Under the pieces are notes generated by a model. The model had not been told where the DNA came from. It worked only from the letters and a program-made list of their open reading frames with translations, and made no database searches. Below, piece after piece: positions 42,332-62,833 of a stretch of DNA of 64,000 nucleotides. The translations under genes and the position numbers were made by a program. The stretch covers positions 124,001 to 188,000 of the forward strand of contig BLZA01000043.1 of assembly GCA_013423385.1 (NCBI GenBank). Direction: 5' to 3'. This stretch comes from Naganishia liquefaciens. Lineage: Eukaryota > Basidiomycota > Tremellomycetes > Filobasidiales > Filobasidiaceae. Numbering within the stretch: position 1 is the stretch's first letter; each line of letters opens with the position of its first letter.

Positions 42332-44267
42332 CTATGCGGCAAAGATACGGCCGAGGAGCATCTTTTCGAGCGTCGCTTTGCCTGGGGTATGGGTGATGAC
42401 GCGCGGAGCGCCCGTCCGCGACGAGCCTCGCTTGGCGTTTTGGTCTTCATTCTTGCCAGAGGAAATGGCAGACTTTGTGCGTAGCACGGCGTCCTCTTCG
42501 TCGGTCCCTCTGTCACACAAGGCAAGGGAATCAGCAGACCATTCTTCCCTCGGCCCTCGGCCTGCCAAGACCTCTTACTCACCGACGATCCACGACGCAC
42601 ATCCCGCGCGTCAACTCGCCCGTCCGCTCGACCGAGAACACGCGCGGCTTGGTGCGCCAGCCATTGTCCTCGGCGCCGGCAGCGGCGGCGGCGGCGGCCT
42701 GATGCGCGGGGCCATTCTCAATCGCATACCAGACGGCCACGGGATCGTGCATTTCCATTTCATCGGGCAAGCCAAAGCTCTTCATGAGGCCGCGCACACG
42801 TACGAGCATGGCCGACGTAAACTCGCGCAGCGGGGTCAATTCCCGATGTCCGTGCGTGCCCGCTTTCGCCTGTTCGACGTCGTGAATCAACTGATCAAAG
42901 TGGATCGTATGCGGCGTCGTGATATCCAGCGGGGCCATGATCATTTCAAACGCGCCCCGCTTGACGGCCTCGAGCACCTCGTGCGCGGCGTACGGGTCGG
43001 CGAAACAGTTGAACTCCGCTGTCGGGGAAGTGTTGCCCGGGACATCAATGGCGCCGCCCATCCAGACGACTTGACCGACGCGCGCAAACGTCTCGGGATC
43101 GGCGCGCAGCGCGAGCGCAACGTTGCTCACTGTGCGCGTGAGGGGTGCGTCAGCCCAATCTCGGAAATCCTGTGTGTGGTGGGGGGGGGGGGGGGAGAGG
43201 GAACTCACGCGGTCCGAGCGCGATAATCGTCACGCTTCCCGGTTCCTCGGTTTTCAAGCAGTCGAGAATGACCTCGCTCGCGTGCTTGCGCGAGAGGTCC
43301 AGGTGCGCGTGGTCTTCGCCTTCCGCCAGCTCGGGCGGGTCAAAGTGTGGGTGGGTTTCAGAGATGTTGGACAGGCCGTCGGTGCCGTGCTGAGGCAACG
43401 GTCGTAGGGTTAGCGGGGCGTTCTGGGTATTTCGAAACGACGAGATCGCGGGAAAAAAGGCCGTCGGTTCGGTGTACGACGACCGGGGATCGGGTCCGGG
43501 TCTTGTGCGAGACCAACATCGCATCGCAGCAGGCCCCGTCACATTCTTCCCAACGCTCCCCGCAATTGAGAACCATCCCGAAGATAGGCCAAACCGCCGG
43601 CTTTTACGCCCAGGCTCGAACGCCAGAACACCAAAAGGCATATGTGACCAAAACCGCCCCAAAGCGTCGCCGTCGTTTCTCGCCTGCTCGAGAGAGAACT
43701 AGATCCCGGCATCTACATGCCCCGTCCCGATCGCCAGAAGCGTGACCCCTAGGTCAAGTCCCGGAAGAGCCATTGTTCCACGGCAACGAGGCCCGTTGGT
43801 CCCCGCGCGTTTTTCCGGTCCCTCCCCCCCCCCCCCCCCAAGGGNNNNNNNNNNTTCCCACCGACAGTCATCGCGCCACGCACACGACTGTCCCCCTTTC
43901 CGACGACGCCCGGAACCGATCTGAGCGTGCGGAAAGGCCTCGAGTCGCGTGCGAGGGAAGCGTAGATTTGAGCAGGTGTGTACGCGACGGGGGCGTGGGT
44001 GTTGCCGAATGTGATGGTGATTGCCAGGGGTGAGAGTTCTGGCTGTGTGGGGCAGGGAGCAGGGGGGAGCCGCGGGGCAGGGGATGAGCAGAGTGGTGGA
44101 TGGGATGCCTCGACGTACCGATGCGAGTGCGAGGAGGACGGCGAGGACGTCGTCGACTCCGGGGCTGTCCGACCACGGGGGAGGGGCTCAGCGGTGTCGG
44201 CGCGCGCGCGCGCACGGGGACAAACGGGGAACACGTACTCTGTATCGATAATGATCTTTCGTGGCAT
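42332..44267 (-). CDS. Inosine-uridine type nucleoside hydrolase (model incomplete at a gap)
   Basis: Hydrolyses ribonucleosides to base and ribose in nucleoside salvage. The calcium-binding motif DTDPGVDDVLAVLLALAS is formed by exons 44239-44267 and 44119-44164, followed by an exon from 44042 with LAITITFGNTHAP. After the gap the model resumes with HGTDGLSNI (43209-43389), then NVALALRADPETFARVGQVV and MGGAIDVPGNTSPTAEFNCF and MHDPVAVWYA (42583-43129), and a basic tail (42332-42509). These are family hallmarks. The part between about 43400 and 44042 cannot be modelled: it contains ten Ns and a long poly-C run, and more non-matching sequence than one normal intron. This looks like an assembly problem rather than a real lesion. 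Confidence 0.75.
43845..43854. other. Sequence gap (ten Ns) beside a poly-C run
   Basis: Ten Ns follow a run of about 16 C residues (43824-43839). A second long G run lies at about 43181-43195 inside an intron of the same gene. The gap size is probably nominal. Confidence 0.95.
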
Positions 44268-44507
44268 GGTGGTGTGGGGGGAATGGGGGGGATGCGGGGA
44301 TGGGGGAGGATGGGATGGATGGGATATCCCGACTGTATATACCCCTCCTCCCTCCCTCCCTCCGCCCGTCGCGCGTCGATCGCACGCTCCAAGTCCGATC
44401 CACGCGGGTCACATGATATCTCGTCTCGTCTCGTGTTCTACGGAATATACAAACCCCCCCTGCCCTCCCTGCCCTTCCCGCCTTCTTGGCTCGCTCCCTC
44501 GCGCTCG

Positions 44508-45048
44508 CTACAACTGCACACCACGCGGATACCTCTGATGCGTCACCAACTGACCCCCAAATCAGCCCTGATATCCCCACCGCACAGGAGGAGAAAACGC
44601 TCACCTGACATCCACAAAAGACGACAAACCCAAGGTAGACAAAGGCGCTGGCGTAGCATACGCGTGCGACGGCCGATGGGTTGGGAGGGTCGTGCGTGGA
44701 GCCGGTCATGGCTTCGGTGCGGTAGGAAAACGCGAGGCCGAACTGGGGGGCGGGGGCGAGGGGGGCGAGGGGGGGGAGGGGTTAGTGAAAGATGTCGCGC
44801 GGGTCGAGGTGGTTCTTACAGCTGTCATTCCAGACGATCACCGCGTGCCACCCCTCGAGATTAGAGATGCCCCGGTGTTGCGGAAAAGGCCAGGGAGACA
44901 CGCACCTGTGAGAATGACGACGCCAAACAGGGAAAGCACCGTACAACAGCCCGCTGCCACGCAAAAGCCATCCGATCAGTCATCGCGCGCATCTGGTCGT
45001 TACGGGTCGTCACTTACCTAGGGGCGCAGAGACAACAGCGAGAGCCAT
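44508..45048 (-). CDS. V-ATPase V0 subunit f (RNASEK/YPR170W-B type)
   Basis: Small two-helix subunit of the V-ATPase membrane sector. Minus-strand exons 45018-45048, 44906-44953, a proposed 2-nt exon 44820-44821, 44605-44742 and 44508-44534 give 81 residues. The conserved blocks GCCTVLSLFGVVILT, MTGSTHDPPNPSAVAR and FVYLGFVVFCGCQ match yeast YPR170W-B (WCCTVLSAFGVVILS, FVGSINDPEDGPAVAH, LVYLVFFVFCGFQ). Joining exon 2 directly to exon 4 breaks the frame; inserting CT gives Ala and then exactly the yeast spacing of 16 residues between ILT/ILS and the GS of the loop. The C-terminal exon (RYPRGVQL) was chosen by frame and resembles the basic yeast tail. See the findings for the alternative GC-AG reading. 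Confidence 0.82.
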
Positions 45049-45274
45049 GATGTGGGTGTGTTCGGGGGGTATGGGTTGAAGGACAGGGGCCATGACGGCG
45101 AGATGTCAAGTATGTCGGGCGAGATGATGTGGCGGGGGGAACTGTATTACGTAATCGATCGATCTCGCGCGAGGGATCTCGCCCGGGTGGCGAGCGGGCA
45201 AAGGGGACATCGGGTCATCGTCAGCAAGCAAGCAAGCGAGCGAGCAACCAAGCAAGCAACCAAGCAAGCCAGTC
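45049..45274. promoter_or_regulatory. Divergent promoter of V-ATPase f and F-box genes
   Basis: 226 nt between head-to-head start codons. The right part (45222-45271), just upstream of the F-box start, is a degenerate AAGC/CAAG simple repeat. Confidence 0.45.
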
Positions 45275-46340
45275 ATGTCGACGGGGACCACGCTCGAGGA
45301 CTTGCCGTACGAGGTGCTCAGTCTTATTCTCAGGTACGTCGCGTCGTTCATCGCGGCGAGAGCGAACCGACGTTGACGCGCCCCCCCCCGCCCCCCGCCC
45401 CCTGGCCGCCCCAGTCACCTCCCCCTCCGCGACCTCATCGCCGTCACCCTGCTCTCGCGAACACTGCTCTTCATCGCCTCGGACCCATCAACGACGCCCT
45501 TCCACGCGCCCATTCAGGAGATCCTCGATGCCGGCCCACCGTATCCCTCGTGTCTCGCCACGCTCGGAACGTATACCCATATCCCGCGGACCGTGTTTGC
45601 CCACGTGTTGATCCGTGCATCGCCCACGTGGATCCTCGAGCACATGGTGATTCCCGCCGGGATCACACACGACGGATGGCAACGGATCTTTTGTGCGCGG
45701 TTCTTGCCCTCGTGGAAACGCTACCGGGACGACCACGACCACGACCACGACCACGATCGGGACGGGGACGGGGACGGGGACCGGGACCACCCACCGGCAT
45801 CATCATGGCGTGCGGTATTCCTGCGCATCCTCGGCAGGCTCGCGCATCGTTCGCAAGGCTGCACGCACGAAGAAGCATGGACCCGGTTCATCGTCCTGCA
45901 TCGAAACGGAACGGCCAGTCTAAACAGAATGTACAGTCGGACATTTGATCCGTCGGCGATTTATCAAGAAATTAGGAGGCAGAATGATTTGATGGGATAT
46001 GGTCAGGAGGTGAGAGAGGTCGTCAGGTTGCAGGATGTAAGGATACTCGTGTATGGGACAATGGCATCGCCGAGGTGAGTCCCCCCGGGGCGCGCGCCGG
46101 AAACTCTACAACAACTCTGCCGGTTTCCCTAACTCTGCTTGCTTCGGTTCGGGTCCCCCAGATCCCTCTGGGTGAATCCAAACGCCTACGTCATCCTCCA
46201 TCCGCCGGGACTCGTCGAGGACACCATCACAGACGACGAGCCACAGTCGGACGCGCGGATCGGGATTCTGGCCGGGGGGGAAGGGGCGGGACGGTCGGGT
46301 GAGGAAACGGGGGCGGAGGGGAGGGATGTCGAGGTGCCAA

Positions 46341-46373
<33 letters not shown>

Positions 46374-47488
46374 GGAGGGCGACGGGAACGACACCAACGA
46401 CAACGACAACGACAACCCCATCGCGCCACGGGTTCATGCGAACACGATCTCTCTCATTCGGACGCCACGCGGCACATGTCCACCACCACCCTCCAGAAAC
46501 CGAGAGCGCGAGTTCCGCCGCCCACCCGGCCGGCGGCAGCAGCGGCAGCGGCGCCATTGCTTCCCTCGTAAGTCGAATCCGGGGTACATCCCTCGCCGCG
46601 ACGCCGCCGCCGCCGCCGCCGCCGCCAACGACGACACCGCGTCGAACGTCATGGCTCGGTCGGACGCACAGTCGGGATGAGGCCGTTCGACACGGGGCGT
46701 CGGCGTCGGCCGGGGCCGGGTTGTCGAGGTCGACGACGAGGGTGAGCGATGTGTCGGCCCACGGTGGGGATCGGACGCGGACGACGGCGAGCGAGCGAGC
46801 GGTACCGCCTACCGAGACGAGGACGACGGCGAGCGAGCGAGCGGTACCGCCGACCGAGACGCGGACGACGGAACGTACCAAACCTCCAACCCCCCACGGC
46901 AAGCCCTCCGTCGACGACCCCTTGACGTACGGCTCGCCGTATCCACCCTTACGAGAACCCCTTCCTGCTCCATCGCACGCGCTTTATCCGAATTGGACAC
47001 CTCCTGATCCGGACGCCGCTCAAGGCGGACCGAGGGATACCCGTCCCGGACGTCGGGTCGCGCGCGAAAAGCAGAAATATCTCGCGGCGGCGGTGCCCGT
47101 GGGTGCGGAATGGAACGACGATGATGTCGCGGGAGGCTGGCGGACGTGGATTGGACCGGTTTTGTAAGTTGCCCCCTTCCCCCTTCCCCCACGGCCCGCG
47201 CACAAGGCGCTTGGCTGACACGTCGTTTCCTTCGTTCTGGGTAGGATCATCGCCCAGCTGTGTCCCGCGCCATCTCAACTCCCCCGTGACGCGGATTCGC
47301 TACACTTACCCCCCACCGCCGACGGCGCCGTCCCGCCCGTCTCGCTCGGCCCGCCGGGGATGTATGCCTCGTTTGATTGGGAAGACCTGGATGCGCTCTT
47401 TCCCTGGCTCGAGCTGCGGCAGGCGGAGAATGGGAACGATGGCGAGGCCGGAACGACGCATCGTGCGGGCCTTGGGTTTGCTAGGTAG
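45275..47488 (+). CDS. F-box protein with low-complexity insertions
   Basis: Probable substrate receptor of an SCF ubiquitin ligase. Four exons (45275-45333, 45415-46074, 46162-47163, 47245-47488) give 654 residues. The F-box is at the N terminus, starting LEDLPYEVLSLIL and continuing over the first intron to LPLRDLIAVTLLSRTL. The rest has no recognised substrate-binding repeats. Conserved-looking blocks (WILEHMVIPAGITHDGWQRI, LWVNPNAYVILHPPG, YASFDWEDLDALFPWLE) are separated by an HD/GD dipeptide run, Thr and Pro runs, and an exact 42-nt duplication encoding RTTASERAVPPTET twice. The position of the F-box and the phase-correct splices support the model; the target is unknown. Confidence 0.75.
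46774..46866 (+). repeat. 42-nt minisatellite inside the F-box gene
   Basis: Two near-exact copies of a 42-nt unit encoding RTTASERAVPPTET, followed by the start of a third (RTTER). In frame, so copy-number change would keep the protein readable. Confidence 0.75.
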
Positions 47489-50777: not shown

Positions 50778-53700
50778 TCATGCGCGGTCCCACGCTTCGA
50801 GATCAAACGCATCCGGCGACTTGACGCCGTCCGTGACCCTGAAAGGTAAACCGACGATCAGTCCTGCCGTCCACTCACCCATAGCCTGGACCGAAAACTC
50901 ACTGAATAACCACATGCCCGACCTGTCGTTCGTTTGGCAGACTGGGCTCCCATACAGACGAATCATAATGCTTGCGCTTCTCCTTGGGAATCCGCTCGAT
51001 GATCCGCACCTCGATCACCTCGTCGCCGCCATCGGCCGGTGGAATCCCCCACAACGTGTACTCCTTGGTATCCCACCGGAGCCAGGCAGGCAGCGGCGTG
51101 CCATCCATGCGTTCGGCGCGGTACGTCGAGGGCGCTTGCGCCGTCCATGTTGCAGCCGACAGGGAAACCGATGGCGGCGGGTTCAGCGCCGGGTGGAGGT
51201 TGAAGGTTTCATTGATCAAGGCAATGTATCGGCCGTCCGTCGTCTGACGGTTTCGATCGAGGCTTTGCTGCAAGACTTTGCCCATGGGCAGAGGAGGAGA
51301 CATGACGGCCGTGTCTTGCGGGACAGCGCGGATCGAGGAAACACGTTTGCCGGCAGCGGCGGCAACGGGGGGCAAAGACATTCGACCGTTCGGCGGCGAA
51401 CCAAAGACAATCGAGTCGGCCGGATATCCAAGTGCCTGCAAATCACCGAGCTGGCTCGGCGCATAGAGCGTCGACTCGCGTCGTGCCTCTTCGTCGGCAT
51501 CGTCAAACGCGTCTGCGGGCGTTTCCATAATCGCTTCCTCGGACGGCGTGCGTGATGCCTGTGGCATCTCGCTCTGCGTCGGCGATACGGCAAACTTTTC
51601 CCGCGAAGGCATGAGTCGTAGTTCACCATGCGGCTCGCCGTGATCGTAAGGCGCATCATGCAGACTCGACTGCGATCCCTCATCTTCCTCGTCGACGGAT
51701 GAGAACCGGTTGGTATCGATTATCCGACCGAGGCCCGAGGGTTGAGTCGAGAATCCATTGCCGGCGCGGTGTGCACTGTCAGGCGACAAAGAAAGCGATC
51801 CAGTAGAAGATTGCATGCGGGATCCAAACGACGTGCCCGGATTGCTCGGCGTCGTCGGCGACGTCGGCAAGCTTTGGTCAAATTCACTAAATGTGCCCGA
51901 GAAAGTATCGCTCGGTTGCCTCACGAGACGCACCATGGCGCCCGGACCCGCGTGTCGAGGGTACCTCGGCGCAAAATCAGGACGCGGGCGCGGAATCGAA
52001 GGTGCACCCGACAGCGGACGGCCGTTGCCGTCCGGCGTCATTCGGCCCTCACCAGATGACCACTGGAATGATGATCCTCGACTTTCCCAGCTAGCGCGGC
52101 TGTCGGATGAGGTAAAGTCATGGGTAAAGTCGCTTCCGCCGTGGCTCGGCACGTTCAAGCTTTCCTGGCGAATAATTTCTCCTTGAACCGGCGATCCCGT
52201 GTCGAGCGCAAACTGTCGATCCTCGGGCTTGACTTGCGCGCCCAGACCCAGGATTCCACTCATCGCCGCCAATCGCTGAGGCTGACTTGCCTCCTTTTCG
52301 AGATCGATTCGCGTCGGCCGTTGACCGACGTCGCTTGGACGTTGCAGGTAGATGCTCGAGAACGTGGGCACCTCGCCCTGATCCAATCGTGCGCTATGAC
52401 TCCTCGGCAACGTCCCAAATGGATCCTCCTTGGTATGCGGAGACTTGATCATGCCGACAAAGCTATCCCCATCGGTGCTCTTGCGCGGCGGTGTCGCTTT
52501 CTTCTGCTGTTTTCGTCGTCGAAGACAGCAGAAGCCGATAAGCAAGGCGAGAAGAAGCGCTCCGAGACCCAGGCCGACACCGAGGCCGATCTTTGCGCCC
52601 GACGAGAGGCCCGACTTGTGCGTGTTTGCGACAGGCGGAGCCGACGCCGTCGCGGTGGGCAACGTCGTCGAGACGGCCGTGGCAGCGACACCGGCGATCT
52701 CGATATCCAAGGTGGCCGTCGAAATGACATTGTTGGCGTCGAGTGCGGCGAGAATGACGGAAACATGCGTATCGCCAGCTGCCAACGATCGGAAATCCTT
52801 TTTGGTAAGGGACGTCGTGTTGGGCACGTTGCCCGAAAGAGTATATGTCTTGGGGTCCAGCTTGAGCCACGACGTCAGATTCTGATTGGCGCCGAAAAAG
52901 GATGCATTGATGCCGCGAACGGCATCACTGTTCTTCAAGTAGTTGCTGACGGGGAAAGCAAACATATTTCCCGGTTGCGCGGTAGCGTTCGGCAAAGAAA
53001 TGGTGCTGAAAAGCGATGGGACGATATTCAACGGCATGTAGTCGATGAGCGAGGCCGTGGTGCCGTTGACCTCGGCTGTCAAGTTGAGAGGGACATAACT
53101 CGTGCTGGAAGCATTGATGTATTCGGCGGGTGTAGTTCCGCTCAGCGTCAAGGTCGAGCTACAGCGGCGTCAGCCAAGCACTCGCTCATCTCCGCCATCC
53201 AACGTACCTGTCAAAGCTCAACCAAGGGAACTCTGTCAAGTCGGCGTCCACCGCGACATTACCCTTTTCACCATTCAAACTGACGACGTCGAGGTTCAAT
53301 ACAGCATTCACCGCACTGCCCGCCGTCGTCGTCACGTTTGCCAGCTGTTCATCCTCTTTGATATCGATATACGCCGTCCCGATCTGTACGATAAAGCTAT
53401 TCTCAATGGCGGTGTAGCCCCAGACGTCGGATCCGGTAACGACGATCGTGTAACTGCCATCAGCCGGAGCCGTTCCGGAAAAAGTGACAGTCTCATTGTC
53501 AAAGTTCAACCACGGCGGAAGCACAGTGTCGCCGCGCAGATGAGCAGAGTAGTAGATGGACTGCGAGGGTGCGCTGTATGCGGGACGAAAGGTAGATTGC
53601 TGGAAGCCCATGGAAAAGGAGTAGTACGGGTGGATGTACACGCCCTGATTTGATGGCAAGGCCTGAGCCGTGTTGAATTGATGGAGACGCGGGTTCGCAA

Positions 53701-54085
53701 TCTGAGTATCAAATCCTTGGTGAATAGCGGGTGGCGCGGTATCCGTGACGAGGATGGTAAAGGAATCGGTCGTTGCTGTCGTGTCTGTTGCCGTAAGGCT
53801 GACATCCAGAGTGCCCACGTCATTTGGGCCCGGTGTCCCTGTGAAAGAGAGCGTCGTATTGTCAAACACGAGCCAAGAAGGTAGATCACTCGTCGAATAG
53901 GAGATCCCGTCCGTCGATGAGGTCGTGGTCGTAAAAGTATTGTACAAGAGCTGAAAGTCATATGCGGTGTCGACGCGGGCGATGACGGGCAATTGGTCCG
54001 CGATGGGATGTAGCAGCGTCGGCGCGGCGTGGACTTGGAGCAGGAGAGAGGCGCCCAGCGCCATGAAGGAAGGAATTCTCGACAT
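50778..54085 (-). CDS. Axl2-like membrane protein with cadherin-fold (CADG) repeats
   Basis: Single-pass surface protein resembling yeast Axl2/Bud10, a polarity and bud-site protein. Three minus-strand exons (53208-54085, 50903-53158, 50778-50838) give 1064 residues. A signal peptide (MSRIPSFMALGASLLLQVHA) is followed by four CADG-type repeats recognisable by the core LPSWLVFDNTTLSFTGTP, LPPWLNFDNETVTFSGTAP, a third split at the first intron (WLSF...LTLSGTTP) and WLKLDPKTYTLSGNVP. One helix (LGVGLGLGALLLALLIGFCC) lies near residue 490. The cytoplasmic part is Ser/Pro-rich but ends with a fifth WLRWDTKEYTLWGIPP repeat. The last small exon adds VTDGVKSPDAFDLEAWDRA after a GTGAGT donor. N-glycosylation sites are frequent outside. 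The Axl2 link is by architecture. Confidence 0.85.
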
Positions 54086-54924
54086 GTCTGAAATTTGCTT
54101 TCCTTCGGTTCTCTTTTTTTTTTTCGTGGTGAATCCAACAGCGCCAGTCTGAAGGCCACTCGATTTCGTACGAGTGTTGTGTCGTATCCTTCGGTCGCGC
54201 GTGTCCTCGTCGTTGTCGTTATCGTCAAGAAGAAGCAAAGTCTGATCGACAGACTCGCACGCAGCGTGCGTGGTGATGGCAGAAAAGACCGTAGAGCGGA
54301 AGAAGGATCGAAGAGGGAAGAACGACGACGGGCGCTGTGACCTGCACCAGTTCTTCTCGGACCGTTGGTCGTGCGTGACCGTGCGTTAGAGTTCCGAAGC
54401 GTCTGCAGTGCGCCAGCGGACCAAGAAGATCAAGGACACACCGAAGGATGACGCGGGACGAGATCGTAGGCGGGAAGGAAAGGAAAGCCGCACAGTCGGG
54501 CGCTCGATGGACCTGCCCGGCTCGACGCGTCACAAACACAACAGCGCTAGACGCGTGCGGCAAGGCACGCTGGGGGAAACGGGTGGGATAAACCTCGGGC
54601 TATTTGCCGAGATTGCATGACGCTCCTGTGGGGGATATCTATGGCTTTTGCAAGCTGCAAGTTGGTACGAGCATGATCCAGTGATTCACCATACCATGTC
54701 TGCGACAATGCCAGAATACAAAAGAGAGAGAGAGAGAAATACATTTCATTCATTTCGCCCAGAAAGGCGAATGCCCACCCAATGCGGGATTCCCCTGAGC
54801 ATGTCTATTTTCCAAAAGCCTACAAAGGGCGCTGTCTTGCCGGCTTGCTAAGAGTCCGTCTACGGTGGATCGCAATCGAGGTACCGTGTGATGTCTAGTG
54901 TTGGAGATTCTTTAGATCGATAGC
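54086..54924. other. Intergenic, no gene recognised
   Basis: 839 nt between the Axl2-like start and the TPT transporter stop, both minus strand. A T-rich tract (54113-54124) lies just upstream of the Axl2-like start codon. A short GA repeat occurs at about 54725-54738. No coding signal. Confidence 0.4.
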
Positions 54925-62728: not shown

Positions 62729-62833
62729 TCTCCCTTAGCTCAGTGGTAGAGCGCGTCACTAGTATCTCCTAAGCCGACATCGGCTGAGAATTCTGCAATG
62801 ACGAGGTCAGTCGTTCAAGTCGGCTAGGGAGAA
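62729..62833 (+). tRNA. tRNA-Thr (anticodon AGU) with a 33-nt intron
   Basis: Acceptor stem TCTCCCT (62729-62735) pairs with AGGGAGA (62826-62832), discriminator A. The D arm contains GCTCAGTGGTAGAGC, the anticodon stem CGTCA pairs with TGACG (62799-62803), and the T arm reads AGTCG-TTCAAGT-CGGCT with one G-T pair. The loop CTAGTA-A places anticodon AGT at 62761-62763. The intron (62765-62797) sits between positions 37 and 38, the canonical place. Internal A and B box sequences are normal. A T5 run directly downstream (from 62836) is a Pol III terminator. Confidence 0.92.

Follow-up and report, generated by a model that had tools for sequence, protein, structure and literature searches.

The subunit f gene and the break in its reading frame

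The window, i.e. the whole stretch of 64,000 nucleotides analyzed here, carries a V-ATPase subunit f gene on its minus strand. Positions 45600–44300 of that strand were read directly, and the gene was found to run from an ATG at 45048 to its end at 44508. An extra in-frame ATG at 45093 (minus strand) lies 15 codons before this likely start. A GC-rich island (42500–47000, ~64% GC vs 55% for the window) holds the subunit f gene and a nucleoside hydrolase gene, and the introns checked in this island tend to be longer than those elsewhere. In or near the hydrolase gene, 10 consecutive Ns adjoining a long stretch of G (43845–43854) mark a local assembly gap. The parts of the subunit f gene, some of them proposed, are the following (evidence in brackets):

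45018–45048, minus strand: coding part of exon 1, MALAVVSAPL and the first base of the following codon (sequence, phmmer, Pfam)
44954–45017, minus strand: intron 1, 64 nt, TAG/GTAAGT...CTGAT (23 nt from the 3' end)...GGCAG (sequence, donor model)
44906–44953, minus strand: exon 2, ..AGCCTVLSLFGVVILT and G, ending ILT (sequence, phmmer, Pfam)
44822–44905, minus strand: proposed intron 2, 84 nt, CAG/GTGCGT...CTAAT (44864–44860)...GACAG (donor 10.1, acceptor 10.4 bits)
44820–44821, minus strand: proposed microexon CT, 2 nt, completing the Ala codon G/CT (enumeration, Pfam)
44743–44819, minus strand: proposed intron 3, 77 nt, GCT/GTAAGA...CTAAC (44785–44781), C-rich tract, CCCCAG (acceptor 12.0, donor 3.0 bits)
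44605–44742, minus strand: exon after the microexon, FGLAFSYRTEAMTGSTHDPP...VVFCGCQ, starting FGLAFSY (Pfam)
44550–44604, minus strand: last intron, 55 nt, CAG/GTGAGC...CTGAT...GTCAG (sequence, donor model)
44508–44549, minus strand: last exon, LVTHQRYPRGVQL and stop (sequence)

Exon 2 ends in ACA G and the next conserved exon opens with TTC GGC, so the frame is two nucleotides short if everything between them is removed as one GT–AG intron of 163 nt. On the minus strand the interval is worded CTCACAG/GTGCGTGT...CTAAT...TGACAG, then CT, then GTAAGA...CACTAAC...CCCCAG, and then TTCGGCCTC. The original prediction had described a frame break of two nucleotides between the ILT and FGLAFSY exons, and CT flanked by introns of 84 and 77 nt; the direct reading found the break, the lengths and the motifs as described.

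When CT is retained, the spliced product has 86 residues with an Ala at the junction. It matched the Pfam family PF23489 (V-ATPase_su_f) with 103.4 bits, against a curated threshold of 27 bits, over profile positions 3–78 of 78, nearly the whole profile. In a phmmer search, yeast YPR170W-B aligned with this product without gaps (E 4e-17, query 5–81 to chain 4–80). ILT-A-FGLAFSY passes through that alignment unbroken, in agreement with the Ala codon and the gapless spacing that had been predicted. No subunit f relatives were found in viral and prokaryote contigs, either with the product alone or with a profile that included yeast. The PF23489 score depended on what stood at the junction: it was 96.3 bits with no residue, 97.3 with two residues and 102.6 with one unknown residue. 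Since the score drops with zero or two residues, exactly one codon is missing from the junction. Among specific residues, Val scored 105.0, Ile 104.4, Ala 103.4, and Gly and Asp 101.3 each; Ala, which CT would encode, fits the family better than Gly, which either GT or GG would encode. When the stretch FGLAFSYRTEA was masked, the score fell to 86.6 bits, and when it was deleted, to 75.6 bits. Because 16.8 Pfam bits rest on FGLAFSYRTEA, this stretch is coding.

Splice signals in the interval

The signals of the proposed introns were compared with those of 22 introns of the window, whose junctions were checked by hand, mostly against homologues with solved structures. This training set comprised 11 introns of the phosphoketolase gene, five of NOG1 (nearest solved structure from fission yeast), one of CK2 beta, three of the nucleoside hydrolase gene and the two undisputed introns of subunit f. 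The last NOG1 intron sits in a less conserved stretch, and the nucleoside hydrolase junctions were based on family motif and frame, with no printed alignment. A gene finder was used only locally to propose introns, which were then hand-checked against homologues; its run over the whole window over-joined genes and was dropped. U1 duplex energies were computed and set aside on account of register shifts. Also left out of the donor model was a probable intron of 338 nt in the CK2 beta gene (32899–32562, minus strand), where conserved exons lie ~338 nt apart, several times the usual intron length, with good outer sites. This interval may hide further small exons.

All 22 checked introns were GT–AG introns of 44–79 nt, with donor scores of 5.5–11.1 bits. 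In the retrained donor model, the first donor of the interval, CAG/GTGCGT, was strong at 10.1 bits, and GTGCGT also serves as a donor in NOG1, elsewhere in the window. At 3.0 bits, the second donor, GCT/GTAAGA, was weaker than any of the checked donors. In both proposed introns the best branch motif is 40 nt away from the acceptor, while the CTRAY-like motifs of the checked introns mostly lie at 10–27 nt. Proposed intron 2 is slightly longer than the checked maximum of 79 nt. Since the neighboring nucleoside hydrolase gene, which is also GC-rich, has introns of 74–79 nt (one of them with a long C run), lengths of 77 and 84 nt are less odd at this locus, and the pair fits the checked range far better than a single intron of 161 nt. 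The donor, branch point and acceptor that had been claimed for each intron are thus all present, with a weak second donor and long branch distances. The GC donor T/GCGTGT, which had been called poor, scored −0.6 bits against the range of the checked donors.

The proposed CT microexon and competing readings

Splicing solutions for the interval were then enumerated. Every single GT/GC–AG or AT–AC intron that kept the frame and introduced no stop was listed, yielding 13 solutions; a gapless protein came only from a GC–AG intron at 44903. AT–AC introns were rejected on this enumeration. Retaining the initial 86 nt of the interval as far as GTAAGA was discarded too, for the in-frame TGA that it brings in. 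The seven nested in-frame solutions of the kind expected of a donor-disrupted stwintron all used GC donors at −0.1 or less, and were rejected as well. When pairs of introns enclosing a small exon were enumerated, CT came out on top (35.5), followed by a GG microexon (27.1). CT is the top-scoring enumerated in-frame splicing that leaves both conserved exons intact: the frame requires it, and no better canonical splicing was found among those enumerated.

The readings were also ranked by a likelihood model with terms for donor, branch distance, acceptor, length and intron-density prior, the weights of which are rough, as they come from smoothed distributions over 22 introns. CT scored −4.4, the use of a downstream acceptor −7.1 (before its protein loss of 28 bits), GG −13.1, the GC–AG intron −16.9, and the 163-nt GT–AG intron −3.9 (before any charge for the 2 nt that the assembly would wrongly lack at the junction). 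The model carries no penalty for a 2-nt exon; about 8 bits of such a penalty could be absorbed with CT still ahead of the GC–AG intron. To gauge chance, the outer donor and the outer branch and acceptor were held fixed and inner AG-NN-GT pairs that scored as well were counted. With the two sites exactly 2 nt apart, such pairs turned up in 7 of 5000 dinucleotide shuffles, in 73 of 19,956 random segments of the window (0.1–0.4%) and in 1 of 18,454 from the GC-rich neighborhood. Any frame-restoring exon of up to 20 nt arose in 73 of 5000 shuffles and 644 of 19,953 window segments (1.5–3.2%).

Taken from the sequence and its homologues, these data argue, with a probability of roughly 0.8, that the subunit f gene has a constitutive 2-nt coding exon, CT, between U2-type GT–AG introns of 84 and 77 nt. 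Against it stands a very low prior for two-nucleotide exons. Among the competing readings, a single GC–AG intron of 161 nt (44903–44743, minus strand) with the donor GGT/GCGTGT is improbable, yet the least so: GT would stay in the mRNA, whose junction would read ACAGGTTTCGGC, and the inner AG-CT-GTAAGA would be accidental. The resulting Gly keeps both the frame and the Pfam match, the probable CK2 beta intron is a sign that the window may hold long introns, and 1.0% of the introns annotated in fungi are of the GC–AG type (PMC7072748), which is presumably much more frequent than a 2-nt exon. The proposed donor is nevertheless off consensus at −3 to −1, +2 and +4, and a strong GT donor lies only 2 nt upstream of it. 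GC donors are otherwise near the consensus AG/GCAAGT, which this site, with its negative score, is not. Its intron would be twice as long as the longest checked one, and the reading falls 12.5 bits below the CT model, with a further 2.1 bits lost for Gly vs Ala.

Slightly less probable again is that one 163-nt GT–AG intron is removed and that the genomic CCCCAGTTCGGC is faulty, through a 2-nt assembly deletion, or truly frameshifted, right at the exon junction. Before the cost of an error is charged, its splicing score equals that of CT; moreover, the assembly is imperfect nearby, at the 10 Ns, and C-rich tracts run up to the acceptor. The error would have to comprise exactly two bases and, because the alignment is gapless on either side, to fall no more than a few bases from the junction; it would also make the inner AG-CT-GT a coincidence. 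Two further readings are very improbable. Joining CAG/GTGCGT to an AAG ending at 44712 would remove a canonical 194-nt GT–AG intron in frame, giving the mRNA junction ACAGCCATGACC with TTCGGCCTCGCG absent from the mRNA. This acceptor is weak (3.8), and 11 conserved residues, most of FGLAFSYRTEA, would be lost, at the Pfam cost given above for the deletion. Equally doubtful is a 2-nt exon GG (44853–44852) between introns of 52 and 109 nt, with the junction ACAGGGTTCGGC. It is in frame and has a CTAAT branch motif 8 nt before CGAG; its donor scores −0.5 bits, its acceptor is CGAG, it encodes Gly, and it falls ~9 bits below CT. Weak as it is, this second AG-NN-GT in the same interval counts against CT too, in that the pattern can recur here. 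The original prediction had chosen CT, which stands as the best-scoring splicing that keeps both conserved exons, with Ala fitting better than Gly; it had overlooked the GG candidate and how weak the second donor is.

Proposed sequential splicing and other small exons

In fungi with short introns, splicing is generally held to proceed by intron definition. Under the CT reading, each short intron would be recognized as a unit across itself, and introns 2 and 3 would be removed one after another, in either order. Since a U1 site at GCT/GTAAGA extends over the final base of intron 2's AG, both introns are unlikely to be engaged at once. In case intron 2 is removed first, the second donor would be preceded by ...ACAGCT; in case intron 3 is removed first, the first acceptor would be followed by CTTTCGGC. 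The exon would have long neighbors at each step, and therefore would never be defined as an isolated exon. The join G/CT, with the mRNA junction ACAGCTTTCGGC, would create the Ala codon, so that the first transmembrane region and the remainder of subunit f share one reading frame. We infer that the RNA is spliced via CT in this sequential manner. The claim that 2 nt is far below the limit for exon definition proved a weak argument, as intron definition is likely in short-intron fungi and an exon of 1 nt has been proven (PMC4674806).

Other small exons lie in the phosphoketolase (XFP) gene of the window. Between 59956 and 59778 (minus strand), an exon of 13 nt (59907–59895) and one of 7 nt (59831–59825) are both needed for a gapless match to the homologue; the codons for FGP-DETES-NK-LGAVYE align without a gap to FGPDETASNRLDAVYE of a phosphoketolase with a solved structure. 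The same gene also has a 27-nt exon (59524–59498, minus strand). Because the 13-nt and 7-nt exons are verified by homology, the organism tolerates microexons. A yeast-type subunit f, a NOG1 closest to that of fission yeast among solved structures, and short introns with CTRAY branch points suggest that this intron-rich organism is a fungus, probably a basidiomycete.

The 1-nt exon of Arabidopsis APC11 was additionally verified by reporter constructs and, when changed to 2 nt (TT), was still spliced correctly in Arabidopsis (PMC4674806); the 1-nt exons of APC11 and VPS55 are conserved across land plants (PMC8831610). The proposed CT exon resembles these plant cases as an ultra-short exon between complete introns that the frame requires and annotation misses. 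It differs in being 2 nt long, fungal and deduced from genomic DNA, whereas theirs are cDNA-verified. Small exons between fungal introns are also found in Trichoderma Xlr2 (PMC11121469) and in Phanerochaete P450 genes, where annotated exons go down to 6 bp (PMC1184071). CT, by contrast, is only 2 nt long, and the frame would require it to be constitutive, unlike the regulated cassette of Xlr2. As at zero-nucleotide recursive splice sites (PMC13149111), AG and GT stand nearly back to back, with a donor straight after an acceptor; unlike there, CT would be retained in the mRNA as coding sequence, and the introns flanking it are short. Stwintrons (fungal spliceosomal twin introns) likewise combine adjoining short introns with consecutive reactions, but the subunit f introns are consecutive rather than nested, and no nested arrangement with an external GT donor fits.

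Searches of open-licence papers for phrases that name a 2-nt exon found none. It is fairly probable, though less so than the exon itself, that CT is a constitutive 2-nt nuclear coding exon, the smallest fungal one that we found mentioned, with obligatory sequential splicing, in a genome where exons of 2, 7 and 13 nt are normal and missed by annotation. If true, near-minimal exons extend from plants to fungi, and the gene offers a small, testable case of two introns with overlapping recognition sites, useful for studying splicing order in short-intron organisms. Conserved short proteins can drop out of fungal annotation; subunit f could be lost in this way, because gene-finding software that sets a lower limit on exon length would cut the gene short or shift its frame.

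Two other features of the window were observed. A tRNA at 62729–62833 (plus strand; Rfam 49.8 bits, 105-nt span) probably bears an intron; ARAGORN, run in bacterial mode, did not detect it. A protein encoded at 53189–54385 (minus strand), next to an open reading frame of 756 aa, has repeated He_PIG (putative Ig) domains and possibly comes from an Axl2-like polarity gene.
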